Origin: Cenarchaeum symbiosum A | GTDB taxonomy: Archaea; Thermoproteota; Nitrososphaeria; Nitrososphaerales; Nitrosopumilaceae | Assembly (NCBI GenBank): GCA_000200715.1 | Contig: DP000238.1 | Span: 804,154 to 868,153 of the forward strand | Direction: 5' to 3' | Length of the DNA: 64,000 nucleotides | Shown here: positions 15,711 to 35,533 of the stretch, one piece after another | Numbering within the stretch: position 1 is the first letter of the stretch | How the letters are laid out: each line of letters begins with the position of its first letter | Made by a program: the position numbers and the translations under genes | Notes under the pieces: model-generated | Told to the model about the DNA's origin: nothing | Databases searched by the model: none | What the model saw: the letters and a program-made list of their open reading frames with translations, nothing else

Positions 15711-15813
15711 GCCGCACGCCATAAACCAGCAGCCCCTGCTCACAATAGTTATCAATGACTGTCGGCCGGCTGCAACATAGATGGGCATTAGAGCGGGGCT
15801 TTAGTTGGCAGGC

Positions 15814-18800
15814 ATGATCCTCTCCGATCAGGCCAAGGGGCGCCTGCGGGCAGGCCTGCGCGCGGCTGGTCCCCTGTTCCTACTTGTGCTGTCCCTGGCC
15901 GCGGCCCCGCATGCAGAGGCCCTGCCGGGTATTCTCTCGGCCACGCTGGATTCAGACGGCGTGCTGCTCACCATTGTATTTGACGATACAGTGGATGCAT
16001 CAGATATAGATCCGTCAAAGATACACGTAAGGGACGGAGGGGCCCTCTCCGGGGGCGCCACATTTGCAGGAGGGCTGCTATCTAGCGCAGAGCCCGACAC
16101 TGTCAGGCTTGCCGTGCCGCATAATGCAAGGGCCATTGTGGCAGGGTACGCATCCCCTACGTTGCACTTTGACGCAGGCGCGCTCGAAAAGGGAGGCGAG
16201 GCATTTCCCCCTGTGTTTGCATTCCCCCGGGATGATGCGGCGCCCTTCTTTGCCCTTGCAGAAGCCACCCCGCAGGGGCTGGCATTCTCGCCTGATGGAA
16301 CACTGATGTTTGCCGTCGGGTCCACCCAGGATACCGTCTTCCGGTATGCATTGGACCCGCCGCACGATGTGGCATCTGCGGTGCTCTCAGGATCATACAG
16401 CGTGCGGTCCGAAGAGAACAACCCGCGCGGGCTTGCCTTCTCGCCGGATGGTACAAGGATGTTCGTCGCCGGGGGCACGGACTTTGTGTACCAGTATTCA
16501 TTGGGGGAGCCTTTTGGTTTTGATCCCGCCCCTGCATTTGACGGCAGCATAGACGTCAGCGCGTCGGATACAGAGGTCTCGGGTTTGGACTTTGGGGACG
16601 GGGGCCTGCGGATGTACATATCGGGCTACCAGAGGGGCAGCATATACCAGTACGACCTGGCAGAACCGTACGAGATAGCCGGGGCTGTTAGCGCCGGAAG
16701 CTATGACGTCGGGGCCGAGGACGGGAGGCCCCGCGGGGTGGTAGTCTCGGAGGACGGCCGCACAATGCTGATTCTCGGGCAGAGCACCACCAGCGTGTAC
16801 CGGTACTATCTCGGGGAAGCATTTGACGTGGAAGCTGCCATGCTAGTAGAGTCCATGCCGGTCGCAGAATCAGAGAACAGCCCGCGCGGGCTTGCGGCAT
16901 CTGGCGACGGCAGGACAGTCTTTGTCACTGGGGCCATCGACGACAGGGTGTACGCGCATGAGCTCGGCGACCCGTACGACCTGTCGGGATCCCTGCATAT
17001 ACCCGGGGGCAACACAGGGGTGCCCGGGGAGTCGTCGCCAAACGGCGTGGTCTTTGCGCCCGACGGGACAGTCATGCTGGTAGTCGGGAGCGGCAGGGAC
17101 CTTGTATACAGGTACGAGCTGCCACACCCGTACGATACGGGCGGCGCCGCGCTCGATAGCGTCTCGAGGACGAGGCCGGCTGCGCGCAGCCCCGAGGGAA
17201 TCGCCTTCTCGAACAACGGCAGCGTCATGCTGATTCTGGACAGGGGCACATCCAGCATATACGGGTACAACCTGGCAGAACCGTATTCACCTGCAAACGA
17301 GACTCACACTTCCGCATTCTCTGTGGCCGCACACGAGGCCACCCCCACGGGGATCGGCCTTGCGTCTGACGGCAGTTCAGTCTTTGTCACGGGCTCTGAT
17401 TCGGACAGCGTGCACAGGTTCGGACTCGGGGGCAACCTAGACCTCGAATCGGCCGTGCATCTATCCTCCTTTGACGCTAGCCCGTACGTGACTGGCCCCA
17501 CGGGAGTCGCAATTTCTGCAGACGGGCACAAATTGTTCATCAGCGAGCGCGTTACAGATAGGGTGCACAGGTTTGAGATGGCCGACCCATACGAGATAGC
17601 CGCCGCCGTATACGTCGATTCACTGGATGCATCCGCACAGGACGACGTACTGCTGGATATTACATTTGCAGCAGACGGCTCGGCTCTCTTTGCGGTAGGC
17701 GGCAGAAACGATATGGTGTACGCCTATGCGCTCGGCTCTGCCTACGACATCACGCCGTCGGCAAAAGTCATATCTGTCGCCTCGTCTGTCACTTCGGGGC
17801 TCGCGCTCTCAGAGAACGGCGCCATCATGGCCCAGGCCGGCGGCAGCACGATAGGCGGCTCTGCGCTCGGAACGCCGTATGCGATACATACCGCCATTCC
17901 CTCAAATATTGTAGCGCCGCCGGGCGAGGACAACCTGAGCGGGGTTGCATTTTCTGACGACGGGAGGTTCATGTATGTGGTGGGAAGGGACCTGCTTACC
18001 GTATACAGGTATACCATGAACCCGCCATTTGACATATCCACGGCCACGTTGAACAGCCAGTCGCTGCCCCTGCCCGGCGGCGTCAACCCGGCAGCTGACG
18101 CGCCTACCGGCCTCGACATATCGGATGACGGCAGATACCTGTACGTCTCAGACGACAACGGCAACATATACCGGTTTGACCTTGGAGGCCCGTACAGGCT
18201 CAACTCCGGCACGTTTAGCTCCGCGTTATACGTGGGGGGAAACATTACTGCACCCCACGGCGTATACGTGGCGCCCGGAGGAAACATCATGATAGTTGCC
18301 GACCGTGATGACGGCAGCATCCACAGGTATGAAATGGCGACCCCGTACGTGCCAGGGGGCGCAACAGACAGGGGCTCGTTTGACATATCGGGAACAGACG
18401 GCGCGCCTGTCGGGGTGGGATTTGCTGGCGGCCAGCACATGTATGTAGCTGGAAATGACACAGGAAAAGTCTACCAGTATCTCGCAGATACGCACCCGAT
18501 ACAGGCGGCAGGTACTGGGCCGCGCCTTCTCTCGGCGGTCCTGGATAACGGAACCCTGAGGGCCACCTTTGATGGAATGATAGACGCGGGGTCGATACAG
18601 GCGGGGATGATCACGATAAGGGACGGCCATGGCTCCAATACGGGGATACCGCTGCTGCTCCCCGAGGGGGCGGCAGATTCCGAGGTCGTCACGTTTGTGG
18701 TCCCCGAGGAATACAGGGCAGAGGCCGCCTCCTACGGGGATCCGTCGCTGCACGTGCCCGCAACTGCGCTGTCAGGGATTGGCGGCGGATCGTTTGTGCC

Positions 18801-21800
18801 TGATTTTACGGGCGGCTCATTGCTGTCCCCGCTGTACCGGCACGAGCGGGAATTCCAGAGCGAGGGAATAACTAGCACGGAGAGATCCGACAGGTATTCC
18901 CTGACCGTTATTCCAGACGGGAGCCAGATGTATGTCGGAGGGGCCGACGGGAACATCACGTGGTACGACCTTGGAACACCCTATGACATAACGACCGGGG
19001 TCCGCGCGGGATCCGACATATTGCCGCCGTACCGGTCCGCGGGCAGAAACGTGGTCCCCTCTATAACCGGGATTGCCTTTTCTGATGACGGCACGCAGCT
19101 GTTTGCCGCAAACAGGGGGGCCCGCATTGCAATGTACCAGATGGATAGCCCGTACGAGATAGAGAGCGCCAGCATAACAGGAACCCTGCTCACAGGGTTC
19201 CAGTCGGGGATTGCATTCTCGGATGACGGCATGCGCATATTTGCCGCGCTGTTCACTGAGAATGCCGTAAGGCAGTACGACCTGGACAGCCCCTACGAGA
19301 TAAGCAGCGGAGTCGATGCGGGCCAGTACGATCTGGACATTCCGCCGTATCCGGGCATATTGTTCCTGCCTACATCGGGCGTGCACTTTTCGCCCGACGG
19401 GGCCATGATGTTCGTCGGCGAGTGGATATCAGATACTGAAGATGCCAACGCGAACAGGGATGTTCATGTAAACAAGTGGCACAGGTATGCGCTATCCACG
19501 CCGTTTGATGTGCTAACTGCAGAGCGCGTCGACACGTATGAATACAACACCGGGCCGGCGGGGGATCTCGAGGACTTTTCCCTGTCCCAGGACGGCCGCA
19601 GGGCGTACACCCTGACCGGCGAGAGGGTGAGCTCAAGCGAGCATATAATCACCCTTGCCCAGTACAGGCTGCCAGAGCCGTTCGATGTGACCCCGCCGTA
19701 CCTTGTGCCGTCATTCAACGTAAGCCAGGGGGGCAACCTGGCTGACCCCTACGGCATGGCGTTTTCGCCCGACGGGACCAGGCTGCTAGTATCAGGGCAC
19801 GGGGAAACAAACACAAAGCTCTTCCACCTGGATCCCCCCTTTGATATAACCTCGGGGATATTCCAGGGCCACAGCCGGTTCTACCCGGAAGGGCTGGCAA
19901 GCGAGACCATACCATCCGGGGTGGCCCTGTCTGCAGACGGCTCGAGAATATTTCTCTCCGACAGGGACCGCGGGGCGGTAAGCCAGTACACGCTTGATGC
20001 GCCATTCGATGTAGAGTTTAACTCAGAGATAAGAATAGACGTGCAGCTTGACGTGAGCGCACAGGATGCGCTTCCCGGAGGGCTTGCATTTACGCCAGAC
20101 GGGACTGGCCTCTTCATGGTGGGTGGCCAGGGCGGCTCTGTGCACATGTACTCCCTGAATACCCCGTTTGATCTTGGCGGGGCGGCACATGAGATATCGT
20201 TTGCCGTGCAGGACAGGGCGTCTGACCCCCTGGGCATCGCATTTGACAGAGACGGGACAGAAATGCTGATAGCCGATACAGGCGGCTTTGTGCACAGGTA
20301 TATCCTTGATGCACCATACGATATATCGGCCCCTGCATACAACGGGTTGTTCGACGCGGGGGGCGGCATCCGGGATGTGGCCGTCGGCGGCGGATCCATG
20401 TTCATACTAGGGGAGACGGACAGGATATACCGGCACAGCCCCGGCACATACCCGGTGGTATCCGCGCTTGACGGCCCGGTGCTGGCCTCTGCCGCTATAG
20501 ATGCACGGGTGGCTGCAGCCGAGGCATTATTTGATAGAGCAGTCGACCTTGGCGGAATAGACCCCGGGGGAATCCGCATAACAGACGGAGCGGCCGCGGG
20601 GGGAGTGGAGATATCCGGCTCTGCAATTTCCGGCGGCAGGGATCCCGGCGTGGTAAGATTTGAGTTATCAGATGTGGATAATGCCACAGTATCCGGATAC
20701 GCCGAGCCCCGGATGATATTTGAGAGATACGCAGTGCCGGGCCTCTCCGGCGGGTCATTTCCGTCGCAGACAGGCAACAGTACAGAGCTGGAAGCTGTGA
20801 TACCGCTCCCGGGATCCGAGACGTCCCTGACTGGTGCGGCATTCTCGGCAGACGGCATGATGGCGTTTGCGGCGGGAAGCTCGACAGGTAGGGTGTTTGC
20901 ATACTCCCTTGGCGGCGCCTTTGATGTGTCGTCGGCGGTGCGCGCCGGCAGCGCGCCCCTGGGCGCGGCCCCCGGAATATCGGGCCTTGCATTCTCTTCT
21001 GACGGGCGGAGCATGCTAGTTGCCGACGAAACCGGCGGGATACGCAGGTATCTTGCAGGCAGCCCGTACGGTATAGGCGATGTGGAGCTGGTAGAATCTG
21101 TCTCGCTGTCCCCCCGTTCAGAAGACCTTGCAGGAATTGCCTTTTCTCACGACGGCATGACCATGCTGGCGGCCGACGGCTCGGGGTCGGTACACAGGTA
21201 TTTGCTGCAATCCCCGTATTCCATATCAGAAGCAGAGTATAGTGAGTCTGCGATAGTAGGCGGGAGCCCCTCGGGAATAGAGTTCTCGTCGGACGGCCTG
21301 CGGATGGTTGTGCCCGATTCAGGCTCGGAGACGGCGCAGGTATATTCCCTTGCTGCGCCGTATACTATAGACGGGGCAGAGCAGATACTGCCGCTGATGC
21401 TCGGGCCCGGGGCCGAAGGAGCCGCGCTATCCGCTGACGGCACGCGGATGCTCGTGCCCGGATCCGGCGTGAGCCAGTATTCGCTCTCCTCTAGAAACCT
21501 GCAGGTCTGCACGGACGTCCTAGAGCTCGATGAAGGCGAGTGTGACGAGGGCATACGGGTCTCAGAGGGAGCGGGCACAGGCGAGGCGGCATCCCTTGCC
21601 ATATCGATAAGCGTGCTCGAGGGGCCCCTCCTGTCGGAGTCGGCGCCATATACAAGGGACGTCTCCGTATCCGGGCGCGACGCCCCACTGCTGGACAGGA
21701 CCCTTGCACTCGGGTTTGGCCTGATGACAACCGACGCGCCTGTCATTCTAGGGCTCGGCAGGGCGGCAGGGTCGATACCCGGGGTAATAGAGGCGCCAGG

Positions 21801-24800
21801 ATATGCAGAGACTGTCATGCGCGCGGTATCCATAACGGCAACAGACGCGCCCCGGGTAGACGAGCCCGAGTTTGTGCCCCTGCCGGATATGTCCAACGGC
21901 ACGGATGCGGCGGGCTTTGGAGAGCCCGTCTTTCTTGCGGTATCTCTTGGCGTGACGGATTCCCCGGGGCTGCGCGAGCTGGACATGCAGGATTCCGGCT
22001 CCGGGACGCCGCGTATGCGCTCTGCAGAGTTCAGGGCGGGGGCGCTCACAATGGAGTTTGACGGCAGGATAAACGCATCGTCTATACAGCCTGATAGGAT
22101 ACACGTCCGGAACGGCCACTCGGCCTCTGGCGGCATACCGTTCTCTTCTGTAAGGGAGGCGGGCCCCCGCACGGCCGTCCTGACAATGGATGCGGCCCCT
22201 GCTCTCGAGGCCCACGGGTATGCGGAACCCATACTCTACCTTGATGCGGGCGCGCTGCAAGGAGAGAACGGCTCGCCCATTCCGCGGCCGTTTGAGCTGC
22301 CGCTGCCAAAGCACATAGAATCATACCCGCTCGTCTCCATAGAGGACAACGTCCGGGGGATGGCATTTGCGCCCGACGGGACCAGGGCGTTTACGTCGGG
22401 CGGCTCGGGCAGGCTTGTCCAGTTCGAGCTGGATCCGCCGTTCTCGCTGGATGCAATACCCGGTTCTGCAAGGTCGTCTGTCATGCCGCCGCCTGCGGCA
22501 GGGCCCGGCGGCGAGACCACCGGCCTGTACGCCCGGGAGAATGACCTTGTCGGGCTGTCGTTTGATACAGGCGGCACAATGCTCTATCTGATGGGCGGCG
22601 ACACGGATACGGTCCGGCAGTACTCGCTGGACAGCCCGTACGATATACGGGGCGGCATTTCATTTGAGGGCCTGTTCTATATCGGCGGCGAGGCGCCAGT
22701 CCCCGGGGGGCTCGAGATGGGCCCCGGCGGGGCAAACATGTACGTTGCCGCTGAAACTGACGCGTCGGTATACAGGTATGCGCTAGCCGAGGCGTTCAAC
22801 GTATCCACCGCGGTCTACACGGGCGATTCGCTGTCTGTTCTGTCCAATGAGACAAGGCCTACCGGCGTGAGGATATCCCACGACGGCCGCAGCCTGTTTG
22901 TAGCCGGGGAGATAGCCCAGAGGGGGCCCGATTCTGTGTTCCGGTATGATCTGTTCCCCCCATTTGATATAACATCGGCTGCATACGCGGGCCGCCTGCC
23001 CAGCGTGGCCGAGGCCACCATGCAGGATCTTGCATTTGCGGACGGCGGCATGCGCCTGTACATTGCAGGGCACCTGACGCGCTCGATACACCACTATGAG
23101 CTTGCCGCCCCGTACGAGCTGGGGCAGCCCGTATCTGCCGTCTTGGATGTAAGATCCGACCAGGGCGTCCCCGAGGGGTCGGCCTTCTCCGGCGACGGGC
23201 GGCATGTATTCGTAATAGGGAGGGCGGGGCCCGACGGGATGATCCACAGGTATCCTCTGGATATTCCATACGACCTGGCATCTGCTGGCGCCTCCGACCG
23301 GCTATTCGAGGCGGCCCCGCGCGAGACCAAGCCGCGGGATATCGAGTTCTCGTCCGACGGCATGATAATGTTTACGATAGGGCACAGCGACAATATAGTA
23401 CGGTTCAACCTCGGCGCCCCATACGACATAGGGCCCGGCACCCCGCCGGTCTTTGGGGGAAGCAGCCCGGTCACATTCGGGGGGAATGCTATAGACATAT
23501 CCGCCCAGATTGCGACGGGGCTGGAGTTTTCCCCGGACGGCACTAGCATGTACGTGACGGCAGACAACCTGATCCTGCAGTATGCGCTGGACACCCCGTA
23601 TGATCCGTCGTCTGCATCCTCCGAAGAATCGTTTGATTTGAGGCTGCGGCCGCTCCCCGACGGGGAATACACGGAACAGCAGCCTGCGGATGTGGCCTTT
23701 TCGCCCGACGGGACCAGGATGTTCGTCTCGGGGAACCGCATAAACGCCGTGCACACATACGCATTGGGGGAGCCGTTTGACGCCACGACCGCCGTCCACG
23801 ACGGGCTGTTCAACCTGGTGGACTTTGATGACGACCCGCGCGGAATAGAGTTCTCTGCCGACGGGCTGTACATGGTAATCACCAATGACAACGCGGGCGG
23901 TGGCAGCGCCAACAATGCACTCGTCCAGTATGCAGTGGGCTCGCGCCCCCTGGAGGCGTCGCAGTGGATTCCGGATTCAGACGCGCCGGGGGCGGCAGAA
24001 ACCGCCGCCCTGCGCTCGTCAGCCCGTGCGGCGGGAGCCCCTGCGCTCGGCGAGGCTGTATCCCTGGGCGTCTCGATTAGCACAGGGGACGCGCCCGCGG
24101 TTGTCGGCATCCCCGGCGTATCTGGCATGCTGATACCTGCCGATGCCCCAGTGCATGCAGATTCTGTCCGCCTGGGCGTCTCGGTCATGCCGGCAGACCG
24201 GCCGGAGGCAGCCGATGCGACAAACATGATACATCTTATGATCTCGTCGGGTGCAGCCGATGTGCCGGGGCATGCGGATGGCGTATCCCTGGGCCTCTCA
24301 TTATCCACAGGGGATGCGCCGGGAATAGCAGAAGATCCGGGAATGCTGATCCGCGGAACGGCAGGTGATGCAATTGATCTGCCGGGGCATTCTGATAGCG
24401 CATCACTGGGCATTTCATTAAACACAGATGATGCGCCGGGAATAGCAGAAGATCCGGGAATGCTGATCCGCGGAACGGCAGGTGATGCAATAGATGCGCC
24501 GGGGCATGCAGACGGGGCATCCCTGGGGCTTGCCCGTGATGTAATAGACGCGCCCGCGGTAAACGACACGTATGCGGTGGGCGGCGGCCCGGCGCAGGGC
24601 CGCGCAATACCTGTAGATGGAACAGACGCGCCGACCGTCGGTGATGTGCCCATGATCATCGTACCGGCGCAGGTCCGCGTGATACCCGTGGATGCGTCGG
24701 ATACGCCGCTGACATCTGATGGGGTCCGCCGGGGGATCTCCATTGCGACAATGGATGTACCGGCAGTAAGCGACGTCCACGAGATACCCGCAGATATAAT

Positions 24801-26496
24801 CCCGCGTGTCGGGGAAGACGGCCCGGCACTCTCAGACGGGGCATCCCTGGGGCTTGCCCGCAGCATAACCGACGCGCCGGCAGTAAACGATACGTATGTT
24901 CTAGGCGGCGGCCCGGCGCAGGGCAGAGCAATACCCGTGGATGGAACAGACGCGCCAACAGTCAATGATATGCCCATGATCATAGGCCCGGCGCAGGGCA
25001 GAGCAATACCCGTGGATGGAACAGACGAGCCAGCTGTCGATGATATGCCCGTGATCGTCGTCCCGGCGCAGGGCAGAGTAATACCCGTGGATGCGTCGGA
25101 TACTCCGATGGCATCTGACGAGGCCATCAGGGGGATCTCCGTTATAGTAATGGATGTACCGGCAGTAAGCGACGTCTACGTGCCCGCAGGCACAATCTCC
25201 CGGGACGGGAAAGACAGCCTGGCGCTTTCAGACGGGGCAGTACTGGGACTCGCACGTACTGCAACCGACGCTCCTGTGATCAATGATACGTATGCAGTGG
25301 GCGGCGGCCCGGTACAGGGCCGCATAATACCCGTGGATATAACAGACGCGCCAACTGTAAATGATATTCCCACGACCGGCGGCATAGTGCAGGGCCGCAT
25401 AATACCCGTGGATGCGTCGGACATGCCGCTGCCATCTGATGGCGCCCCCCTGGGGCTCTCCAGAACAGCAGGCGACGCGCCCATAATATCCGAGAGGGTA
25501 GATGGCATAGACTCTGCGCGCAGGGCCCACGATATGGTGTATCCAGGTGACAAAGTCACACTGGGCTACTCTATCCACGGGACAGACGAGCCCAGAATCG
25601 CGGACCGCGAAGGGGATGTCATCAGGGCGGTCTCAGGGCCGGATGTAGGCGATACGGCACAAGCAGACCATACGCGCGCCCAGGCCCCCGTCGCGCCCCC
25701 GCCACCGAGGCCTAGATCCGGCGGAGGGGGCGGCGGCTCGTCGGGCACGGGCGGCACGTCCAATGCCGGCAGCTTTGGATATGACGCATCGTTTGGCTTT
25801 AGCTCAAACGGGGTTAGCGCCAGCTTGGGCACATCCTCGCTGAGCCTCTCGCCTGGTGCGCCGCTGGTAATAACGCCGGTGCTGACCCCCGGCGGCACCC
25901 TTAGCGTCTACGACATGGAGCTGCTCTTTACCGGCGCGGCAGGCAAGGTCTCGGAAGTGTACTATAACAGGGTGGGCGCCTTCTTTGACAGGGAGTGCTC
26001 CGGCGAGGCCGAGCAGTCCGACATGGTATACTCGTGCGATGAATCGTCTGTATTCACGGGGCCCGTCTCACTGGGATTAGCGGGCGGCCTGTTAGAAAGC
26101 ATCACCGTTCCGATAGATCACGAGTTTACGGGAACGCTCAGCATGAGGCTCCGCGACAGCCAGGGGATAACGCTTGCGACACACGACCTTGACAGGTACC
26201 GCATAGTGCAGGTAGATACACCGTCCGAGATGCCGGTGCAGCCGGCCGCAGAGCCTGCAGGGCCCGCAGAGCCCGCGGTGCCCGAGCCCCCGGAGGCGCG
26301 CGCGCCAGAGCCGGCATCTCCCGCGGAGGATCCCGGCCCGGAGCCGCCAGCCCCGCAAGGCGTTGCCCCCGGTGAAGATACACAGGATGCAAATGCACAA
26401 GACGCTGTCCCCGGCGGGGATATCCGGGATGCCGCCCCAGAACAGGGCATCATCGATGTGATAATCGGCTTCTTTAGGTCGATTCTCGGGCTCTAG
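15814..26496 (+). CDS. Giant secreted surface protein G1: 15-10-5-10 propeller blades, DxP stalk, anchor
   Basis: 3560 residues from the ATG at 15814 (a TTG at 15805 would add three). Signal peptide 1-36 (two Arg, hydrophobic FLLVLSLAAA, cleavage near AEA). Four modules follow, each a ~100-residue beta-sandwich-like domain (starting ~15922, 18511, 20467 and 22000; pattern h-S-A-x-L-D...F-D...h-R-D-G, SWM/cadherin-like) plus a run of ~47-residue blades with G-h-A-F-S-x-D-G-x-x-M-F-V and Y-x-L-x-x-P-Y-D-I. I count 15, 10, 5 and 10 blades. The third run ends in a C-x8-G-x-C knuckle (21508-21543). From ~23980 to 25650 lies a stalk of D-x-P repeats, then a Gly-rich linker, the shared C-x12-C domain, a Pro/Ala/Glu-rich spacer and the tail IIDVIIGFFRSILGL. 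Likely a cell-surface adhesin; ligand unknown. Confidence 0.88.
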   Translation: MILSDQAKGRLRAGLRAAGPLFLLVLSLAAAPHAEALPGILSATLDSDGVLLTIVFDDTVDASDIDPSKIHVRDGGALSGGATFAGGLLSSAEPDTVRLAVPHNARAIVAGYASPTLHFDAGALEKGGEAFPPVFAFPRDDAAPFFALAEATPQGLAFSPDGTLMFAVGSTQDTVFRYALDPPHDVASAVLSGSYSVRSEENNPRGLAFSPDGTRMFVAGGTDFVYQYSLGEPFGFDPAPAFDGSIDVSASDTEVSGLDFGDGGLRMYISGYQRGSIYQYDLAEPYEIAGAVSAGSYDVGAEDGRPRGVVVSEDGRTMLILGQSTTSVYRYYLGEAFDVEAAMLVESMPVAESENSPRGLAASGDGRTVFVTGAIDDRVYAHELGDPYDLSGSLHIPGGNTGVPGESSPNGVVFAPDGTVMLVVGSGRDLVYRYELPHPYDTGGAALDSVSRTRPAARSPEGIAFSNNGSVMLILDRGTSSIYGYNLAEPYSPANETHTSAFSVAAHEATPTGIGLASDGSSVFVTGSDSDSVHRFGLGGNLDLESAVHLSSFDASPYVTGPTGVAISADGHKLFISERVTDRVHRFEMADPYEIAAAVYVDSLDASAQDDVLLDITFAADGSALFAVGGRNDMVYAYALGSAYDITPSAKVISVASSVTSGLALSENGAIMAQAGGSTIGGSALGTPYAIHTAIPSNIVAPPGEDNLSGVAFSDDGRFMYVVGRDLLTVYRYTMNPPFDISTATLNSQSLPLPGGVNPAADAPTGLDISDDGRYLYVSDDNGNIYRFDLGGPYRLNSGTFSSALYVGGNITAPHGVYVAPGGNIMIVADRDDGSIHRYEMATPYVPGGATDRGSFDISGTDGAPVGVGFAGGQHMYVAGNDTGKVYQYLADTHPIQAAGTGPRLLSAVLDNGTLRATFDGMIDAGSIQAGMITIRDGHGSNTGIPLLLPEGAADSEVVTFVVPEEYRAEAASYGDPSLHVPATALSGIGGGSFVPDFTGGSLLSPLYRHEREFQSEGITSTERSDRYSLTVIPDGSQMYVGGADGNITWYDLGTPYDITTGVRAGSDILPPYRSAGRNVVPSITGIAFSDDGTQLFAANRGARIAMYQMDSPYEIESASITGTLLTGFQSGIAFSDDGMRIFAALFTENAVRQYDLDSPYEISSGVDAGQYDLDIPPYPGILFLPTSGVHFSPDGAMMFVGEWISDTEDANANRDVHVNKWHRYALSTPFDVLTAERVDTYEYNTGPAGDLEDFSLSQDGRRAYTLTGERVSSSEHIITLAQYRLPEPFDVTPPYLVPSFNVSQGGNLADPYGMAFSPDGTRLLVSGHGETNTKLFHLDPPFDITSGIFQGHSRFYPEGLASETIPSGVALSADGSRIFLSDRDRGAVSQYTLDAPFDVEFNSEIRIDVQLDVSAQDALPGGLAFTPDGTGLFMVGGQGGSVHMYSLNTPFDLGGAAHEISFAVQDRASDPLGIAFDRDGTEMLIADTGGFVHRYILDAPYDISAPAYNGLFDAGGGIRDVAVGGGSMFILGETDRIYRHSPGTYPVVSALDGPVLASAAIDARVAAAEALFDRAVDLGGIDPGGIRITDGAAAGGVEISGSAISGGRDPGVVRFELSDVDNATVSGYAEPRMIFERYAVPGLSGGSFPSQTGNSTELEAVIPLPGSETSLTGAAFSADGMMAFAAGSSTGRVFAYSLGGAFDVSSAVRAGSAPLGAAPGISGLAFSSDGRSMLVADETGGIRRYLAGSPYGIGDVELVESVSLSPRSEDLAGIAFSHDGMTMLAADGSGSVHRYLLQSPYSISEAEYSESAIVGGSPSGIEFSSDGLRMVVPDSGSETAQVYSLAAPYTIDGAEQILPLMLGPGAEGAALSADGTRMLVPGSGVSQYSLSSRNLQVCTDVLELDEGECDEGIRVSEGAGTGEAASLAISISVLEGPLLSESAPYTRDVSVSGRDAPLLDRTLALGFGLMTTDAPVILGLGRAAGSIPGVIEAPGYAETVMRAVSITATDAPRVDEPEFVPLPDMSNGTDAAGFGEPVFLAVSLGVTDSPGLRELDMQDSGSGTPRMRSAEFRAGALTMEFDGRINASSIQPDRIHVRNGHSASGGIPFSSVREAGPRTAVLTMDAAPALEAHGYAEPILYLDAGALQGENGSPIPRPFELPLPKHIESYPLVSIEDNVRGMAFAPDGTRAFTSGGSGRLVQFELDPPFSLDAIPGSARSSVMPPPAAGPGGETTGLYARENDLVGLSFDTGGTMLYLMGGDTDTVRQYSLDSPYDIRGGISFEGLFYIGGEAPVPGGLEMGPGGANMYVAAETDASVYRYALAEAFNVSTAVYTGDSLSVLSNETRPTGVRISHDGRSLFVAGEIAQRGPDSVFRYDLFPPFDITSAAYAGRLPSVAEATMQDLAFADGGMRLYIAGHLTRSIHHYELAAPYELGQPVSAVLDVRSDQGVPEGSAFSGDGRHVFVIGRAGPDGMIHRYPLDIPYDLASAGASDRLFEAAPRETKPRDIEFSSDGMIMFTIGHSDNIVRFNLGAPYDIGPGTPPVFGGSSPVTFGGNAIDISAQIATGLEFSPDGTSMYVTADNLILQYALDTPYDPSSASSEESFDLRLRPLPDGEYTEQQPADVAFSPDGTRMFVSGNRINAVHTYALGEPFDATTAVHDGLFNLVDFDDDPRGIEFSADGLYMVITNDNAGGGSANNALVQYAVGSRPLEASQWIPDSDAPGAAETAALRSSARAAGAPALGEAVSLGVSISTGDAPAVVGIPGVSGMLIPADAPVHADSVRLGVSVMPADRPEAADATNMIHLMISSGAADVPGHADGVSLGLSLSTGDAPGIAEDPGMLIRGTAGDAIDLPGHSDSASLGISLNTDDAPGIAEDPGMLIRGTAGDAIDAPGHADGASLGLARDVIDAPAVNDTYAVGGGPAQGRAIPVDGTDAPTVGDVPMIIVPAQVRVIPVDASDTPLTSDGVRRGISIATMDVPAVSDVHEIPADIIPRVGEDGPALSDGASLGLARSITDAPAVNDTYVLGGGPAQGRAIPVDGTDAPTVNDMPMIIGPAQGRAIPVDGTDEPAVDDMPVIVVPAQGRVIPVDASDTPMASDEAIRGISVIVMDVPAVSDVYVPAGTISRDGKDSLALSDGAVLGLARTATDAPVINDTYAVGGGPVQGRIIPVDITDAPTVNDIPTTGGIVQGRIIPVDASDMPLPSDGAPLGLSRTAGDAPIISERVDGIDSARRAHDMVYPGDKVTLGYSIHGTDEPRIADREGDVIRAVSGPDVGDTAQADHTRAQAPVAPPPPRPRSGGGGGGSSGTGGTSNAGSFGYDASFGFSSNGVSASLGTSSLSLSPGAPLVITPVLTPGGTLSVYDMELLFTGAAGKVSEVYYNRVGAFFDRECSGEAEQSDMVYSCDESSVFTGPVSLGLAGGLLESITVPIDHEFTGTLSMRLRDSQGITLATHDLDRYRIVQVDTPSEMPVQPAAEPAGPAEPAVPEPPEARAPEPASPAEDPGPEPPAPQGVAPGEDTQDANAQDAVPGGDIRDAAPEQGIIDVIIGFFRSILGL
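24313..24545 (+). repeat. 117-bp tandem repeat in the G1 stalk
   Basis: A 39-codon unit beginning GATGCGCCGGGAATAGCAGA recurs at 24313 and 24430 with near identity at the DNA level, including silent positions. Each unit holds two D-x-P half-units. It is the first part of a longer repetitive stalk. Confidence 0.75.
24529..25480 (+). repeat. Higher-order repeats in the G1 stalk, with a 75-bp subunit
   Basis: Three large units begin with L-A-R codons at 24529, 24853 and 25249. They contain a 25-residue subunit R-x-I-P-V-D-x-x-D-x-P...; copies of it start at 24925, 25000 and 25075, exactly 75 bases apart. The second large unit has gained extra subunits, so it is longer than the first (396 against 324 bases), a sign of recombination between repeats. 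Confidence 0.75.
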
Positions 26497-26550: not shown

Positions 26551-27756
26551 ATGGAGCCATCGTATGAAGAGGTTGAAAGGGCCGCCTCCATGCGCGGGGC
26601 CGAAGTGCGCAAGACTCCCCTTGTGTACTCCCCTACATTTAGCAGGATGACCGGCTCCGAGGTGTACCTAAAATTAGAGCACCGCCAAAAGACCGGCTCC
26701 TTCAAGATAAGGGGGGCGCACTACAAGATAATGACGCTGCCAGATAACGAAAAGAAGAAAGGCGTGGTGGCGGCATCCGCGGGAAACCACGCGCAGGGGG
26801 TCGCATTTGCAGCCTCTGCCGAGGGGATACCCTGTACTATAGTCATGCCAAAGACCGCCTCGCCAGCAAAGGTGGCGGCAACCCGGGGGTACGGCGCTAA
26901 TGTGATACTGGAGGGCTCAAGTTATGAGGAATCATGGAACAAGGCAAGGGAGATTGCCGCCGAGACTGGCGCGTGCATAATACATGCATTTGATGACCCG
27001 CAGGTGATAGCGGCCCAGGGCGTGATAGGCCTGGAGATTCTAGAGGAGCTGCCCGATGTGGACGAGGTTTACATTCCGGTGGGTGGCGGGGGCCTTGCCG
27101 CCGGCGTACTAGTGGCCATAAAGGAAAAGCACCCGGGTGTAAGGGTGGTAGGCGTGCAGTCGAGCAGGTTTCCCGCCATGAAGGAATCGCTGGATAGGGG
27201 CAGCACGGCCCCGTCCGGAGGGGGGACGACCATAGCGGATGGCATATCGGTGAGGAGTCCAGGCGAGCTGACATTTGCTATAATCCGGGAGCTCATAGAC
27301 GAGATAGTCCTCGTCGATGATTCCGAGATAATAGGGGCGATGTTCCTGCTAATGGAGAGGTCAAAGTCGGTGGTGGAGCCTTCCGGGGCGGCCACCCTTG
27401 CGCACATACTGTCAAATCCGCGCCCCGGAAAAAAGGTGGTGGCGGTCCTGGCGGGCGGCAATGTCGATATGTACCTGCTAGGGCAGATAGTGGATAAGGG
27501 CTTGGCCCAGACGGGCAGGCTGCTCAAGGTGTTCATACTGTTGCCGGACAAGCCGGGGGCCCTCAAGGAGGTGGTAGACGAGATAACCTCGGCCAATGCC
27601 AACATAGTCGAGGTGGTCCACGACAGGTTTAGCTCCGAGATAAACGCGGGATCCGCGGGTGTCACCCTCAGCCTTGAGACGCAGGGCGCGGGGGCGGCAG
27701 ACGGCCTTGTGCGCCATCTCCGGGACAGGGGCATAATCTTCAGGCTGGTCACATAG
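26551..27756 (+). CDS. ilvA: Threonine dehydratase, biosynthetic type with ACT domain
   Basis: 401 residues. A PLP-dependent fold-type II enzyme that deaminates L-threonine to 2-oxobutanoate, the first step of isoleucine synthesis. PLP lysine is in KTGSFKIRGA (Lys52); the phosphate-binding glycine loop is VGGGGLAAG (~175-185); SAGNHAQG holds the Asn that contacts the cofactor. The last ~75 residues (LLKVFILLPDKPGALKEV onward) are an ACT domain, usually the site of feedback control by isoleucine or valine. Length fits the one-ACT-domain form. It sits between giant genes G1 and G2 without functional relation to them. A serine/threonine ammonia-lyase of catabolic type is the main alternative. 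Confidence 0.9.
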   Translation: MEPSYEEVERAASMRGAEVRKTPLVYSPTFSRMTGSEVYLKLEHRQKTGSFKIRGAHYKIMTLPDNEKKKGVVAASAGNHAQGVAFAASAEGIPCTIVMPKTASPAKVAATRGYGANVILEGSSYEESWNKAREIAAETGACIIHAFDDPQVIAAQGVIGLEILEELPDVDEVYIPVGGGGLAAGVLVAIKEKHPGVRVVGVQSSRFPAMKESLDRGSTAPSGGGTTIADGISVRSPGELTFAIIRELIDEIVLVDDSEIIGAMFLLMERSKSVVEPSGAATLAHILSNPRPGKKVVAVLAGGNVDMYLLGQIVDKGLAQTGRLLKVFILLPDKPGALKEVVDEITSANANIVEVVHDRFSSEINAGSAGVTLSLETQGAGAADGLVRHLRDRGIIFRLVT

Positions 27757-27949
27757 GGGCCGGGATAAGATAGTGGATCGCCCGGTCGGAATGCCGGATA
27801 TTTCAAGTCTAAATGTTTAAAATGGCCCCAAATGGCCGGATTACGATGATGTGGCTGCATTATAGCATGGCCTGTATCCATAGGATCGCCTGTCTGGCCG
27901 ATCGGCTGCCGGGGGAGACGGCAGGGCTGACGATAGAGGCGGATGTGTT
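27757..27949. promoter_or_regulatory. Upstream region of giant gene G2
   Basis: About 190 bases. TATA-like strings are TTTAAAATGG near 27811 and ATTATAGC near 27860; both are farther from the ATG at 27950 than in other genes here, so G2 may have a 5' leader of 60 bases or more. A weak GAGGCGGATG precedes the start. Confidence 0.35.
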
Positions 27950-30900
27950 ATGATAGGCCCGGCGCTAAAGGGCGCAGCCATGCTTGCGGTATTTGCCGCG
28001 GTGCTGGTGGCGTTTGCACCGCAGGCCCACGCACAGCAGCTGCTCTCCGCCACGTTTGATGATAACGGGATACTGGAGCTTACATTTGACGAGGTGGTGG
28101 AGATGGCAACCTTTGACCCAAGGGGCTTTACCCTGAGCGATGGCAGCGGCATATTTACGATACAGCTCAACCCGGGCAAGCTTATCACTGATGCAGATTC
28201 TGACGTGATACAGTTCCGGCCAAACGACGGCGACAGGAGGCTGGCGCCCACATACACAGAACTGCGGCTCCACATAGCTCCCGATGCCATATCCCCGGGA
28301 AATCCCCCGACCGCAGCATTCACACTGCCGGACTCACAGTATCCGCATACACTTGTCACGTCAACCTTTGAGACCGTAAACGAGGAATCCCCGCAGGGGC
28401 TGGCATTCTCGCCTGACGGTTTGGTCATGCTGGTGGCCGGAAACGAAGGCGATTCAATCCGCAGGTACAACCTGAGCTCGCCCTATGATGTGGCCTCGGC
28501 TGTAGAGACCGAAGAGTTCGACATAAGCGCCCAGGAGGGTGCTGTGACCGGGGTGGACTTTGCCCCCGATGGCGGTAGGATATATGTCGTGGGGAGTAGA
28601 AATGACATAGCCCAGTATACGCTGGATGTGCCGTACAGCTTCGACCCGGCACCACAGTTTGAAACGAGAAGCAACACTCTGGTTCTAAGGAGTGTTCTGG
28701 ATTCGGGTGCCGAAGAGACCCAGTACACAGGAATTCATTACGCACCCGCAATATCGCGGCTCTACCTGGCAGGTGACTCACGCAATGCAATATTCCAATA
28801 TGCTGTGGCCAACATATTCGACGTCAGGAGTATAACCCACTCGGGAACCCTTGAGGTAGTCGACAGCTCGCCCCGCGGCGTGCACGTCTCGACCGACGGG
28901 CGGACCATGCTGGTGCTCGGACAGGGGAACGACATGATATACAAGTACAGGCTCTCCGAGCCCTATGAGGTGACTAGCGCGTCGCTTGTGGCCCAGCTGG
29001 ATGTCAGCGATCAGGATACCAACCCCCGCGGCTTTGCCGCATCAGAGGACGGCAGGTTTGTCTTCATGGCGGGAACAAACAGTGACACCGTACACAGGTA
29101 CGACCTTGGCAACCCGTACGACTTTGGGTTCGGGCCGACCGGCGAGGCCGCTGAGATAGGATCGGGCGGCGAGCCAGTCGTACCGGGGTACAACCTGACA
29201 GAAGATGCTGCCCCCACGGGGATTACATTCTCGTACGACGGCACACAGATGTTTGTAACCGGGGAGGAGAACGATGCAGTGTACAGGTATGCACTGGATA
29301 CGCCGTTTAATGTCAGCGGGGCTGTGTACACCGACAACTTTACCGTGTCGGCGGACCCGCAGGATGTGCATTTCTCCCATCTCGGCACAACGATGATCAT
29401 AGTAAACTCGGCAGGCACAGTCAGCGAGTACGCGCTAAACCAAGCGTATGCCATAACAACGGCCACGCTTACCACCGCCGAATCCCTTGACCAGAGCAGC
29501 AGCCCCACGGGCGTTGCATTCAGCCACGGAGGATACACCATATTTGCAGTCGGGAATGCAAGCGACAGCGTCCACGCGTACGAGCTGTTTGGTGATGCGT
29601 ATGACCTGACTGGCTTCATAACCCAATCTGTGGGCAACATAGACGTGAGCGGGCAAGAGACCGACCCCACGGGAATGGCGTTCTCGGATGACGGGCTCAG
29701 GGTGTTCGTAACCGGCCGGGACTCTGATTCCATCCACAGGTACGACCTGAAGAGTCCGTTTGTCCTGTCTGGCGACAGGTATGTGGACTCTGTATACGTG
29801 GGCGAACAGGACAGTTCCCCGGGAGATATTGAGATTCTTCCAGGGGGATCAGGAATGGTGATGGTGGGCACCAACAGCGGCATGATATACAACTACATCC
29901 TGGCAACGCCGTTTGATGTAACATCATCGTCGTACGCCCAGTCCCTATTCGTGAGGAGTGACACCGACGAGCCGGGAGATATCGCCATATCGCCTGATGG
30001 CAGAAACATGTTCCTGCCGGATAACTCTGATGATACGATCCAACAATACTATCTTGGCATACCGAATGACCCGACAAGCGCCGTGCCCGTGGACTCTGTC
30101 AACGTGAGTGCCGATGTGAGCACACCTGCAGGGCTGGCGTTCTCACCCAACGGCACGCTCATGTATGTGGTAGATGAGACCGATGATACAGTCTACGAGT
30201 ATTTGATGGATCCTGCATGGGACGTATCCACTGCGGCGCGCACGGCAAATAGTGCCACGCTCGTGGGAGCTTTCGCTGCCAACGGCTTGGCCATCTCCTC
30301 TGACGGCCTGCACATGCTAGTTACCCAGTCAGGAGGCACTGTGGATCATTATGCCATGGACGGCCCGTATGTGCTGCCAGGCACCCCCGCGATAGCCAAC
30401 ACGCTTGATGTCACAGGCGAGAGCTCCGCCCCGACAGGGATCGCCGTGAATACGGACGGAACGGCCATCGTCATAACAGGAAGCACAGGAGACAGGCTGG
30501 ACCGTTATGTGCTGGGCACGGCATACGACCTGTCCACTGCCGTGCACAACGATACATTGAGCCTGGCAGGACTCGACAACATCCCCGATGGGGTGGCATA
30601 CTCGGCAGACGGCATGAAGCTCTTTTACGTGGGATCAGCCAGCGACACGGTATTCGCTTTCAACTTGGATAGATCACATTCCGTGGTAGCCGCGCCCCCG
30701 GCCCCTGGGATCCTCTCGGCTGTTCTCGACGGGGCGGATCTCACACTAGAGTTTGATAAGGAGATAAGCCCCTCGACTGTAATGCCCGAGAACATACACG
30801 TGCGGGACGGCTCGCGGGCAGAAGGAGGCGGCATAACTCTGTCTAGTGCTAGCGTCTCAGGCTCGACCATCACGGCCACACTGCCAAATGCCGGTGACGT

Positions 30901-33900
30901 CGTCCGGTATACGGACCCCGTCGCATACTTTGACGCACCGGCACTATCCGGTGTGGGAGGCGGCTCGTTTCCGGACCTAGAGGACACATCCGGCTCGGCG
31001 GCCCTTGCGCAACGCCTGCTCGATGGACGCGGTGCACTCAGTGTTGGGTTTGCCGGCAGCTACTCCGTCAGCAACGAGACCACCCTGCCAAGTGGAGTCT
31101 ACTTCAGGGAGAGCGGGCTGCAGATGTTTGCGATTGATCAGCCAAATGACAACTTGGTGGCCTACAACCTCTCTGTTCCGTACGACGTGACGAGTGCGAC
31201 ATTTAATGCGAACGTATCAGTCCGGGGCACCAGTCCCGATCCGAGGTACACCGGGGTGGAGTTTAACCCCGATGGCTCCAGCTTTTACCTCGTTGACATG
31301 ACAGGCGGCAGCGGCAGCAGCGGGGCAGTCAGGCAGTTTGTGATGTCAGAGCCGTTTGATATAACCACAGCCACCGAGGCGTCATTCAGGCTGGTCCTCT
31401 CAATACCCAGCCCGAGGAATACAGGACAGCCCGAAGGACTGGAGTTCTCCCCGAATGGAGCATCCCTGTTCATAGTGGAAGGGTTTAGGGACCAGGTCGT
31501 CCGGTACGACTTGGGCACCCCGTACGACCTAAGTACGGCCGTGCTCAATTCCACCGTCAGGATATCCAGCTACACGCCCACGCCCTTTGATGTGACATTC
31601 TCGCCGGACGGCCTGTCCATGTTTACAATCGATCTGGGAGGCAGCATAGTGCGCAAGTTTGCCCTCCCCACACCATACGAGATAACCGGGGCCGAGCAGG
31701 TCGATTCCACATTTGTCGGCTCGCAGGCCTCCAACCCCCACGACGTGTCATTCTCGGCAGACGGCTTTAGGATGTTTATCGCCGATAACTTGGGAGACAA
31801 GATAGTCCAGTACGACCTTTTGAGGCCGTACGATCTGACATGGCCGGGGCAGCCGGGCAGGCTGGGAGTCAACACGCCGTTCCATGTAGAGAACAACCCC
31901 ACGGGGGCCGACTTCTCGTCAGATGGGAGTGCGGTATTCGTCGTAGGAAAGGGGCTGGACCAGATTCTGCTGTGCGCCCTGTCAGTGCCATACGACGTGA
32001 CGACCGGCGCGTGTAGGATAGAGCATGCAAATGTAGACGGCGACCCCACCGGGATATCATTCTCACCTGATGGCAGGCGTGTCTTTGTATCAAATGCGAC
32101 TAACATATACCAGTATACGATGGATAATGCCTTTGCCATGACGGATAGCGGATTGGATCTTGATATCAGCCAAAAGGTGACACTTGACATCACACAGGTA
32201 CCCAACTCCGAAGGTATCCCGTTTACAATCGGCACCGCCGAAGGGCTCGCCCTATCATCTGACGGCAGGACCCTGTTTGTACTGGGCACCATCCCCATCA
32301 CTGCGATACAACAGTACATACTCCCCTCGCCCTTTGATCTGCGGGGCGCCGTATTCAGAGGTTATTCCGTGCAACACTCGCTCTCAGAGGCCGATCCCTC
32401 GGGCATTGCATTCTCACCTGACGGCATGCGGCTTTACATAGCCGACAGGCTGACAGGGCAGATAATCACATACACCCTGGCCTCCCCGTACCATCTATCC
32501 CCCTTTGCCGAACGCACGGGGATAACGGACTTTTCCGCCGCCGACAATTCCATAGAGGATGTAGCTGTGGGCGCGACCGGCGCGGTATACGCGGTTGGAT
32601 CCGGCAGGGACGGCTTGTACAGCTATGATGCGCAAGATGGGCGCGCATATCCGCTGGCCATAACGGGGACGCCCGGCAGGCTGGATGTCCTGTCAGGCAC
32701 CATCAACATGACCAATGGTGTCATAAATGTGACATTCGCGGATATGGTGGACGGCAATGCGCTGAATCCGACAGGATACTCGATAGTGAATGCCAGTGGG
32801 ACGGAGGCATCCATCACCCGCGCCGACAGCATAGAAGTGAATGGCAGCAGCTTGATCTTTGATCTAAGCGAGGAGGCCCGGAATGCAGTCGTCAACTTTT
32901 CGGATCCAAGGCTGCAGTTTGACGAGTTTGCAATATACAGCTCAGACGACAGGGTGTTCCCGGAGCCGTTTGCCCTCCCGTCGGAGCCGGCATTCGACGG
33001 CACGGGCACCAACCAGAGCTCCGGAGATCTTGTCTTCTCGTCTGACGGCTCCGTAATGTACACCCTGGCAGAGAATAACCTGTACTCGTACCAGCTTGGC
33101 ACCCCGTTTGACGTCACGTCGGCCTTTGATGAAGACGAGATCCGGCGCGCCGTGGCGACGGGCATGGCCTTTCCACCCGACGGCGATTCACTGTTCATGT
33201 CCAACGCCTCTGACGGCAAGGTAAGCCAGTTCTTCGTAAACGATCCCTTTGACCTGTCCGGGAACGGCCTGCGGATCGGCAGCGCCAATCCTATAGGCTC
33301 CATCGGGCTCGGCGCGGACGCTGTACCTACCGGTGTTACACTCTCTGCCGACGGGAGAAAGATATTCGTTAGTGAGAGCAGGGATGATAGGATATACGGG
33401 TACGGCCTCAACGAGCCCTACACACTGCTCGATGGCACCGGGGACAGGGAGAGCTTCAATCTGACAGATATCAACCCGTCGGGGGTTGCATTCTCGGATG
33501 ACGGCCTGAGGATGTTTGTTTCCGGGAATGATACAGGCGTTGTGCAGAGGTACGACCTCACGACGCCATACAAGCTGGAGGGTGCATCACTCTCCGATTC
33601 AGAACCGGTCACACCCGGGGCGTCAGAGATTGCATTCCTGCCAGGCGGCCTGCGGGCATACGTCGCGGGGCCCGGCGGCATAAATCAGTATTCTCTGGAT
33701 ACAGTCAAACTGAATCCGCCGCCCATGATGCGCTACATCAGCTCCACCGACAGCCCCATGATCAGGACAGGGCTCGATTCGATGATACCACAGGTGATAT
33801 TTAGGATAAACGAGACAGACAGGTTGGAGATAGTCACCACCACCGTCCCCTCCTCGGACCTGTCAATGGACCTCCCCATAGTGCGCATTCTGGCCACGGG

Positions 33901-35533
33901 TGTCAACACCTTGGAGGCCACCATAGACGAGTCGTTTGACTGGCCACTCAACAGGACAGACTACACTGACAATGTCAAGTTGGAAATCGATGGGAATCCA
34001 GCCGATACCACCTCGGCCGATCGGGTGGCGGTAAACAACGTAATCATAGACACCAGCAGAGTCCTCACACAAAATAGCGAGATCATAGTCCGGTTTGTAG
34101 ATGTGGAAGATTCCGAGGATGTTTTGTACAGCGGAGAATACACGCTTGATGATTCCGACAAGGCCCTGCTTGCCGGGCGGTCGATAAACATAACGGATGC
34201 GGACAACCTGCTTGTAATACACCGGGATACGCCGCGCAACCTTGTGATCAACGACACTACGGCTGTGAACGTGCCGCTCATACTGCACCTTGTAAACGAG
34301 ACGAGTGACGGGACAGCAGAGTTGTTCTCTAATACCACCATCAGGGGCGACGGCATCACCGTAACACTGCCACAAAACCTCATCCTGTCGGGTTTTGATA
34401 ATCTGACACAGATAATCATACAAAAGGATAACAGTACGGCGATACCCAGCCTGCAGATCGCCTCCATTGAAAGCTCTTTCGAGGTGGGCCGGCCGGACGC
34501 AGACCTCGGCCTGAGCAGCCCCGCACGGATTGCCCTGCATGATCAGGCTGGAAAGACAGGATACCGCATAGGCTTGTCCAGCGGGCCCATGACAATAAGT
34601 GATACCTGTGAAGACGACGTCATGCCGGTGGTGTCCGACGTCTGCTCGCTGGATGTCAGGGATGACCTTGTAATATGGACGAATGACCTCTCCATATTCG
34701 GCGCGGGAAATAGCCCCGGGCCAGGCACCGGTCCCGGGCCTATTACGTCGACCCAGCCGTCGCGCGGCGGCGGTGGCGGCGGAGGAGGCGGTGGCGGAGG
34801 CTCCCTCCTCAGCGGCACGGGCCTCGGGTATGACGCCTCGTTTGGCTTTGCCTCGGAAGGGGCAGACGCGCTGCGCGGCTCATCCATACGCCTCCAGCCT
34901 GGCGGCACGCTGGTCATACAGCCCCAGCTCACACCCGCTGGACTCTTGACCGTATTTGACATGGAAATATACCTGACAGGGGCGGGCGGCGAGAGTGCCA
35001 GCGTATACTATAACAGGCTGGGCGCCTTCTTTGGAAAACAGTGCTTTGGCGAGACAGCAGAATCCGAGATGACAAAGACCTGCGATGAATCATCGATAAT
35101 ATCAGGGGCGGCAACACCCGTGCTAGTCGGGGGATCCCTCGAGAGCATCTCCATACCCCTGGAGGGCGAGTTTGCAGGGACAGTAAGCATGATGCTACGC
35201 GACAACCAGGGGATAACGCTTGCGACACACGACCGCGACAGGTTCAGCCTGAATACAGGAGGGGCCGCCGCGCCGGATGCGGGTGTTCCGGATGCCGTGG
35301 AGCCGGGTGTGACACCCCCGGCGGCAGGTTCTATTGATGAGCCCCGCGCAGAGCCCGCCGAGGACAGGGAGCCGCGGGACGAGCCGGCGGCAGGGACAGC
35401 AGACGAGCCCAGCCAGGACAGGGAAGCCCCGGAGGAGCAGGATTCAGAGCCTGCGGCAGAGATAGCAGAGGATTCCGAGAGGAGCTTCTTTGACGCGATA
35501 GGCGACTTTTTCAGGTCGCTCTTTGGCCTCTGA
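27950..35533 (+). CDS. Giant secreted surface protein G2: 15-10-5 propeller blades, anchor
   Basis: 2527 residues. Signal peptide 1-28 (cleavage AHA-QQ). Three modules: SWM/cadherin-like domains start near 28034, 30697 and 32665, followed by runs in which I count 15, 10 and 5 blades of the same pattern as G1. The order of blade variants matches G1 and G3 (for example blade 4 of the first run has PRGVHVSTDGRTML). Instead of a D-x-P stalk, ~1000 bases (33720-34720) encode an extra region rich in Asn/Asp and beta strands, with the string RILATGVNTLEAT shared with G3. Then come an eleven-Gly linker (near 34770-34803), the C-x12-C domain, a Pro/Glu/Ala spacer and the tail FFDAIGDFFRSLFGL. Surface adhesin or ligand-binding role inferred. 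Confidence 0.88.
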   Translation: MIGPALKGAAMLAVFAAVLVAFAPQAHAQQLLSATFDDNGILELTFDEVVEMATFDPRGFTLSDGSGIFTIQLNPGKLITDADSDVIQFRPNDGDRRLAPTYTELRLHIAPDAISPGNPPTAAFTLPDSQYPHTLVTSTFETVNEESPQGLAFSPDGLVMLVAGNEGDSIRRYNLSSPYDVASAVETEEFDISAQEGAVTGVDFAPDGGRIYVVGSRNDIAQYTLDVPYSFDPAPQFETRSNTLVLRSVLDSGAEETQYTGIHYAPAISRLYLAGDSRNAIFQYAVANIFDVRSITHSGTLEVVDSSPRGVHVSTDGRTMLVLGQGNDMIYKYRLSEPYEVTSASLVAQLDVSDQDTNPRGFAASEDGRFVFMAGTNSDTVHRYDLGNPYDFGFGPTGEAAEIGSGGEPVVPGYNLTEDAAPTGITFSYDGTQMFVTGEENDAVYRYALDTPFNVSGAVYTDNFTVSADPQDVHFSHLGTTMIIVNSAGTVSEYALNQAYAITTATLTTAESLDQSSSPTGVAFSHGGYTIFAVGNASDSVHAYELFGDAYDLTGFITQSVGNIDVSGQETDPTGMAFSDDGLRVFVTGRDSDSIHRYDLKSPFVLSGDRYVDSVYVGEQDSSPGDIEILPGGSGMVMVGTNSGMIYNYILATPFDVTSSSYAQSLFVRSDTDEPGDIAISPDGRNMFLPDNSDDTIQQYYLGIPNDPTSAVPVDSVNVSADVSTPAGLAFSPNGTLMYVVDETDDTVYEYLMDPAWDVSTAARTANSATLVGAFAANGLAISSDGLHMLVTQSGGTVDHYAMDGPYVLPGTPAIANTLDVTGESSAPTGIAVNTDGTAIVITGSTGDRLDRYVLGTAYDLSTAVHNDTLSLAGLDNIPDGVAYSADGMKLFYVGSASDTVFAFNLDRSHSVVAAPPAPGILSAVLDGADLTLEFDKEISPSTVMPENIHVRDGSRAEGGGITLSSASVSGSTITATLPNAGDVVRYTDPVAYFDAPALSGVGGGSFPDLEDTSGSAALAQRLLDGRGALSVGFAGSYSVSNETTLPSGVYFRESGLQMFAIDQPNDNLVAYNLSVPYDVTSATFNANVSVRGTSPDPRYTGVEFNPDGSSFYLVDMTGGSGSSGAVRQFVMSEPFDITTATEASFRLVLSIPSPRNTGQPEGLEFSPNGASLFIVEGFRDQVVRYDLGTPYDLSTAVLNSTVRISSYTPTPFDVTFSPDGLSMFTIDLGGSIVRKFALPTPYEITGAEQVDSTFVGSQASNPHDVSFSADGFRMFIADNLGDKIVQYDLLRPYDLTWPGQPGRLGVNTPFHVENNPTGADFSSDGSAVFVVGKGLDQILLCALSVPYDVTTGACRIEHANVDGDPTGISFSPDGRRVFVSNATNIYQYTMDNAFAMTDSGLDLDISQKVTLDITQVPNSEGIPFTIGTAEGLALSSDGRTLFVLGTIPITAIQQYILPSPFDLRGAVFRGYSVQHSLSEADPSGIAFSPDGMRLYIADRLTGQIITYTLASPYHLSPFAERTGITDFSAADNSIEDVAVGATGAVYAVGSGRDGLYSYDAQDGRAYPLAITGTPGRLDVLSGTINMTNGVINVTFADMVDGNALNPTGYSIVNASGTEASITRADSIEVNGSSLIFDLSEEARNAVVNFSDPRLQFDEFAIYSSDDRVFPEPFALPSEPAFDGTGTNQSSGDLVFSSDGSVMYTLAENNLYSYQLGTPFDVTSAFDEDEIRRAVATGMAFPPDGDSLFMSNASDGKVSQFFVNDPFDLSGNGLRIGSANPIGSIGLGADAVPTGVTLSADGRKIFVSESRDDRIYGYGLNEPYTLLDGTGDRESFNLTDINPSGVAFSDDGLRMFVSGNDTGVVQRYDLTTPYKLEGASLSDSEPVTPGASEIAFLPGGLRAYVAGPGGINQYSLDTVKLNPPPMMRYISSTDSPMIRTGLDSMIPQVIFRINETDRLEIVTTTVPSSDLSMDLPIVRILATGVNTLEATIDESFDWPLNRTDYTDNVKLEIDGNPADTTSADRVAVNNVIIDTSRVLTQNSEIIVRFVDVEDSEDVLYSGEYTLDDSDKALLAGRSINITDADNLLVIHRDTPRNLVINDTTAVNVPLILHLVNETSDGTAELFSNTTIRGDGITVTLPQNLILSGFDNLTQIIIQKDNSTAIPSLQIASIESSFEVGRPDADLGLSSPARIALHDQAGKTGYRIGLSSGPMTISDTCEDDVMPVVSDVCSLDVRDDLVIWTNDLSIFGAGNSPGPGTGPGPITSTQPSRGGGGGGGGGGGGSLLSGTGLGYDASFGFASEGADALRGSSIRLQPGGTLVIQPQLTPAGLLTVFDMEIYLTGAGGESASVYYNRLGAFFGKQCFGETAESEMTKTCDESSIISGAATPVLVGGSLESISIPLEGEFAGTVSMMLRDNQGITLATHDRDRFSLNTGGAAAPDAGVPDAVEPGVTPPAAGSIDEPRAEPAEDREPRDEPAAGTADEPSQDREAPEEQDSEPAAEIAEDSERSFFDAIGDFFRSLFGL

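Follow-up and report, generated by a model that had tools for sequence, protein, structure and literature searches.

A short amphipathic C-terminal tail of giant exported proteins in Cenarchaeum symbiosum A: a candidate outer-face membrane anchor

The giant propeller-repeat proteins encoded in the stretch of DNA analyzed here (the window; 64,000 nt, bp 804154–868153 of the single 2,045,086 bp contig of this genome, whose completeness is 99.91%) end in a short tail that, judged by its sequence, is an amphipathic α-helix at the extreme C-terminus. This tail probably anchors the exported giant proteins in the plane of the membrane at its outer face, working much as the C-terminal helix of Escherichia coli PBP5 does; about 34 proteins of this organism are most likely held on that face without the help of a sortase.

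The tail and the Cx12C module in the window and the genome

Giant propeller-repeat open frames occupy positions 3–644, 15805–26496, 27884–35533, 35821–43110, 44259–55388 and 55425–64000 of the window. All five tails (those of G0 through G4) lie at protein ends, and the arrangement of the original prediction is confirmed, in which each of these proteins ends in a Cx12C domain, a spacer and a 15-residue motif; in each, VYYNR-h-G lies upstream and D-x-S-S follows Cx12C immediately. Two details needed correction: G3 ends in FLDAIADFFRSLFGMS, two residues beyond the G, and the G0 domain begins 57 bases upstream of the window. These ends are very far from a chance pattern, given the genome-wide profile matches described below and the lack of any match to the tail-plus-stop DNA pattern in 100 shuffles of the window.

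All of the following features are on the + strand. G0 closes a 12,016-codon open frame whose start lies upstream of the window; the part of its Cx12C domain inside the window lies at 3–359 and its tail (IFDIIIDFFRDLFGL) at 597–641. In G1, a putative signal peptide region read from the sequence (15814–15930; a hydrophobic core of hydropathy 2.42, then A-x-A) stands at the N-terminus, and the C-terminal portion comprises a Pro/Gly-rich linker (25690–25770), the Cx12C domain (25771–26208), an 80-residue Pro/Ala/Glu-rich spacer (26209–26448) and the tail (IIDVIIGFFRSILGL, 26449–26493), with the stop codon next at 26494–26496. G2 likewise has an apparent signal peptide region (27950–28036), followed far downstream by its domain (34823–35248), spacer (35249–35485) and tail (FFDAIGDFFRSLFGL, 35486–35530). 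The corresponding domain, spacer and tail are at 42382–42807, 42808–43059 and 43060–43107 in G3 and at 54690–55100, 55101–55340 and 55341–55385 (ILDGIIDFVRSLLGL) in G4. Directly before the Gly-rich linker of G1 are repeats of the TDAPxVxDxxxxGxSL/PVDxTDAPTV type (about 23100–25560, + strand), whose DNA also gives long open frames on the opposite strand, and a threonine ammonia-lyase-like gene, so read from its sequence, is located between two giant surface-protein genes (26551–27756, + strand). The last giant frame (55425–64000 and onward, 5,255 codons) ends close to where the L023 frame begins, a frame of 822 codons with its own module and tail; the gene thus looks interrupted by a frameshift or stop.

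A profile search of the whole genome finds the Cx12C domain at 33 places (best E 1.4e-93), which correspond to 32 genes, one of them with two copies. Six domain positions are invariant: E50, C76, C89, D90, G121 and G132. The 31 open frames that carry the module, measured with the double-module gene left out, total 295 kb, or 14.4% of the genome. The double-module gene (L034, bp 405000–410500 of the contig) has its two domains in tandem and a tail, DYLGMLVEFLRSALGLDGTDATGNAEG, in another reading frame, which indicates a frameshift before the tail that is either real or from sequencing. The domain has no significant match in Pfam, NCBIfam or solved structures, and the few NCBIfam matches of the module proteins resemble low-complexity spacer matches. 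It was not found in 150 other genomes of the family, including one of the same genus; none was confirmed in a genome-contig collection with two peptide patterns, a search that reaches close relatives only, and a plasmid collection yielded nothing related to a module. Propeller-type matches are present at 229 places in this genome, whereas another genome of its genus has none.

The tail is a unit separate from the Cx12C domain. A 19-column profile built from 31 tails matches 34 places genome-wide at E ≤ 5e-4, and the next match comes only at E 1.15. These 34 places are the ends of 31 of the 32 module genes (the exception, L028, has a degenerate end), a 108-codon relic, and the ends of two propeller proteins of roughly 560 residues, ...SEEPGILDAIAEFFGSLLGL and ...PEEPGILDAIAEFFGSLLGL, that have no Cx12C domain; it is these last two, together with the relic, that make the tail separable. 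They also bear on the idea that the tail is an oligomerization helix that bundles C-termini into a multi-protein stalk. An amphipathic helix adjoining a shared domain would suit such a role, but these two proteins have the tail without the domain, and the Phe-rich face and terminal Gly resemble the membrane helices of PBP5 and MinD, so that a bundling function seems very improbable.

Amphipathicity, selection and the export route

That the tail is amphipathic and C-terminal, as had been proposed, is well supported by its hydrophobic moments. The moment exceeds that of the tail's own shuffles in 31 of 31 cases (p < 0.05 each; median p 0.0007), and the column-mean profile exceeds column shuffles with p 0.0001. 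The mean moment is 0.66 with its peak at 100 degrees; the values for PBP5 and MinD are 0.58 and 0.61. Conservation is not confined to the apolar face: among the 31 tails R10 is present in 26, S11 in 27 and G14 in 27, equal to the apolar positions. Of the 31 tails, 28 are neutral or negatively charged overall.

The coding sequences argue that this similarity is maintained. Tail codons have pN 0.295 and pS 0.716 with 4% indels, and domain codons pN 0.364 with 3.5% indels, while the spacer (23% P, 18% E and 15% A) has pN 0.489 and 34% indels; the low pN of the tail beside a drifting spacer points to selection on the tail, and the spacer mainly keeps its composition. The modules are paralogous, so one might suppose that the tails are alike merely through recent duplication of a gene end that has no function of its own. 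However, synonymous sites are near saturation (pS 0.72), the tail residues are conserved when the adjacent spacer is not, and the tail is separable and recurs in another phylum; the codon data contradict this explanation, and we consider it extremely improbable.

The giant proteins appear to be exported by way of Sec-type signal peptides. Such N-terminal sequences, made up of a hydrophobic core followed by an A-x-A-like site, are seen in 24 of the 31 open frames, as called from hydropathy and by eye rather than by a trained predictor. The remaining seven lack one at their start; some of them at least (L023, for example) look like 3′ portions of genes that a stop or frameshift has interrupted.

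The tails are too short, and too polar, for a membrane-spanning segment. Within the last 40 residues the highest 19-residue hydropathy is on average 0.60 and at most 1.26 among the 31 tails, never a transmembrane value, and no membrane-spanning stretch was found in them. Since no window exceeds 1.26, the tails are ruled out as PEFG-CTERM/archaeosortase substrates, in agreement with the original prediction; the genome's real PEFG-CTERM ends are quite different, with a long hydrophobic span and arginines. The genome does have that system: thaumarchaeosortase TIGR04297 matches at bp 336411–337313 (E 8.1e-147), and PEFG-CTERM TIGR04296 has eight matches separate from the tails, none of which, among the matches listed, coincides with a tail in position. 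Two PEFG-CTERM proteins inspected at their ends show VPEFG followed by a hydrophobic span and arginines. Weak PF09721 results had suggested that loss of the archaeosortase gave rise to a new tail, and the TIGR04297 and TIGR04296 matches refute this; this genome holds both systems, and the tail route appears to run parallel to the thaumarchaeosortase/PEFG-CTERM route rather than to substitute for it.

These observations also weigh on the possibility that the tail serves as a sorting or secretion signal, recognized during export and removed by an unknown enzyme of exosortase-like or type IX-like character. Its strictly C-terminal position and modular spread over about 34 proteins are what one would expect of such a signal. 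On the other hand, it has no long hydrophobic span or basic end, the thaumarchaeosortase of this genome has its own PEFG-CTERM substrates, the spacer with its 34% indels is too variable for an obvious cleavage motif, and export is already explained by the N-terminal signal peptides. The original prediction left the choice between such a signal and a membrane anchor open; the former is disfavored by the lack of hydrophobic span and basic end and seems improbable, and the anchor, for which we infer membrane binding, is the best reading.

Occurrence of the tail in other genomes

A search with the tail profile, of the kind called for by the original prediction, reveals no class-wide presence. At a threshold of E 0.003, 2 of 400 genomes of the class and 2 of 250 of the family are positive, in both cases this genome and one of another genus (G010), and the view that the tail is a widespread, general thaumarchaeal signal must therefore be rejected. 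The G010 copy, ...PIPEPEAEEFESIFDAIINWFRSLFGG, lies at the end of a Pro/Glu-rich spacer at a contig end, and that genome also encodes a propeller protein of at least 3,198 codons that matches the set found here; none of eight other genomes tested has propeller-protein matches to this set. Weaker profile matches in the family (E 0.004–0.1) mostly fall in short open frames and resemble chance matches. In three genomes belonging to one genus of this family, open frames of 17–34 codons (L087, L088 and L093) end in IVDFxTSLLG and may represent a small peptide gene or the terminal part of such a gene.

The tail-plus-stop DNA pattern matches 23 stretches in the genome-contig collection, mostly scattered open frames. 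One match is the end of an FtsA protein (TIGR01174, E 1.2e-49). The C-terminal end of FtsA is its membrane-targeting helix, and the match speaks for the anchor reading. Another is a propeller protein of Woesearchaeota, which belong to a distant archaeal phylum. Among the pattern matches there is also a Clostridia family ending in ESNWFD-x-[LI]-CNFFSSLFGG, with a membrane segment upstream, in four genomes (L101, L104, L105 and L107).

One order of Woesearchaeota (241 genomes) has tail-profile matches in 14 genomes at E ≤ 0.003, against a chance expectation of about 0.7, and 12 of these 14 matches end 0–4 residues before the stop codon. A signal peptide is present in ten of the 12 proteins (for one of them it lies in an upstream frame); of the other two, one has a membrane segment at its N-terminus and the second is a fragment. 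Once the tails are taken off, the 12 sort into eight families, so that by sequence the tail appears to end eight unrelated families of exported Woesearchaeota proteins. Because these proteins were picked by the profile, the likeness of their tails is partly a matter of selection; their C-terminal position and export are not. Whether Woesearchaeota and thaumarchaeal tails share descent or arose independently is a question for which 15 residues are too few. Neither this occurrence nor that of the tail without the Cx12C domain was foreseen in the original prediction.

The Woesearchaeota proteins are important in weighing the main rival to the anchor, namely that the tail is a docking peptide for a specific surface receptor such as an S-layer or SlaB-like protein. 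Proteins can be brought to shells or complexes by short amphipathic peptides, and in the tail the conservation of R10, S11 and G14 on the polar face is strong, the net charge is not cationic, and the Pro/Glu/Ala linker that leads to it looks disordered. But unrelated exported Woesearchaeota proteins with the same tail would need the same receptor, and a universal membrane target is simpler; we regard docking as rather unlikely.

A candidate outer-face membrane anchor and its closest parallels

The membrane-anchor reading can be set out as follows. The proteins would be exported by way of their N-terminal Sec-type signal peptides. After export the last ∼15 residues would fold as an α-helix in the outer leaflet, burying F1, F2, I5, F8, F9, L12 and F13 in lipid and placing D3, D/E7, R10 and S11 among the headgroups. 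The acidic Pro/Glu/Ala spacer would bridge the space under or within the S-layer as an extended tether, with the disulfide-capable Cx12C domain, the Gly-rich linker and the propeller repeats outside. Several observations count against this reading. The neutral or acidic charge of most tails is unfavorable for anionic lipids, and the conservation of R10, S11 and G14 exceeds the needs of lipid binding alone; these two leave room for a docking partner. In addition, membrane binding by such short helices can be weak, and the end of the module gene L028 is degenerate.

An exported protein is known to be tethered in this manner to the outer face of the inner membrane, by the 18-residue C-terminal amphipathic helix of PBP5 (PMC2909392). 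The PBP5 (DacA) helix, NFFGKIIDYIKLMFHHWFG, is similar to the thaumarchaeal tail in length and face. It is more positively charged, however, and belongs to a single ∼400-residue enzyme that has no such spacer or Cx12C domain, whereas in the archaeon one common tail serves dozens of giant repeat proteins. No penicillin-binding protein match was seen in Pfam or NCBIfam among the proteins scanned, and the comparison suggests a likeness in working, not membership in that family. A second parallel is pestivirus Erns, a secreted glycoprotein whose C-terminal amphipathic helix lies in the plane of the membrane as its anchor (PMC4536213), as is proposed for the tail; the Erns helix is much longer and belongs to an animal virus, and no relation is implied.

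MinD, which ends in KKGFLKRLFGG, and FtsA, which the tail pattern matches, resemble the tail at the same extreme C-terminal position, MinD with very similar letters. Their sequences act on the cytosolic face, whereas the tail proteins carry signal peptides and are exported, so the tail is not a membrane-targeting sequence of the MinD/FtsA type. Given the closely similar helices at the ends of E. coli PBP5 and MinD, the earlier description of the tail as a new kind of terminal motif is not supported. The short MinD helix binds weakly, only in two or more copies (PMC6803595), which suggests that here too binding may require several proteins or a dimeric Cx12C domain. Among archaea the PEFG-CTERM and PGF-CTERM elements are similar in being common to the C-termini of many surface proteins, but they join a short motif to a hydrophobic transmembrane span and a basic terminus, and the tail lacks all three.

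Attachment of archaeal surface proteins by means other than archaeosortase or a transmembrane helix is poorly charted. It is possible, and we put it forward tentatively, that at least two archaeal phyla share a sortase-independent anchor, [FIL][FIL]-x-x-I-x-x-F-[FL]-R-[SGN]-L-F-G, on a flexible spacer, which in Cenarchaeum-like symbionts anchors an array of giant surface proteins encoded by about one-seventh of the genome. The tail, a directly testable anchor candidate, is carried by dozens of giant proteins in what is probably a sponge symbiont and also by exported proteins of Woesearchaeota, and so offers a simple sequence handle for cell-surface prediction.
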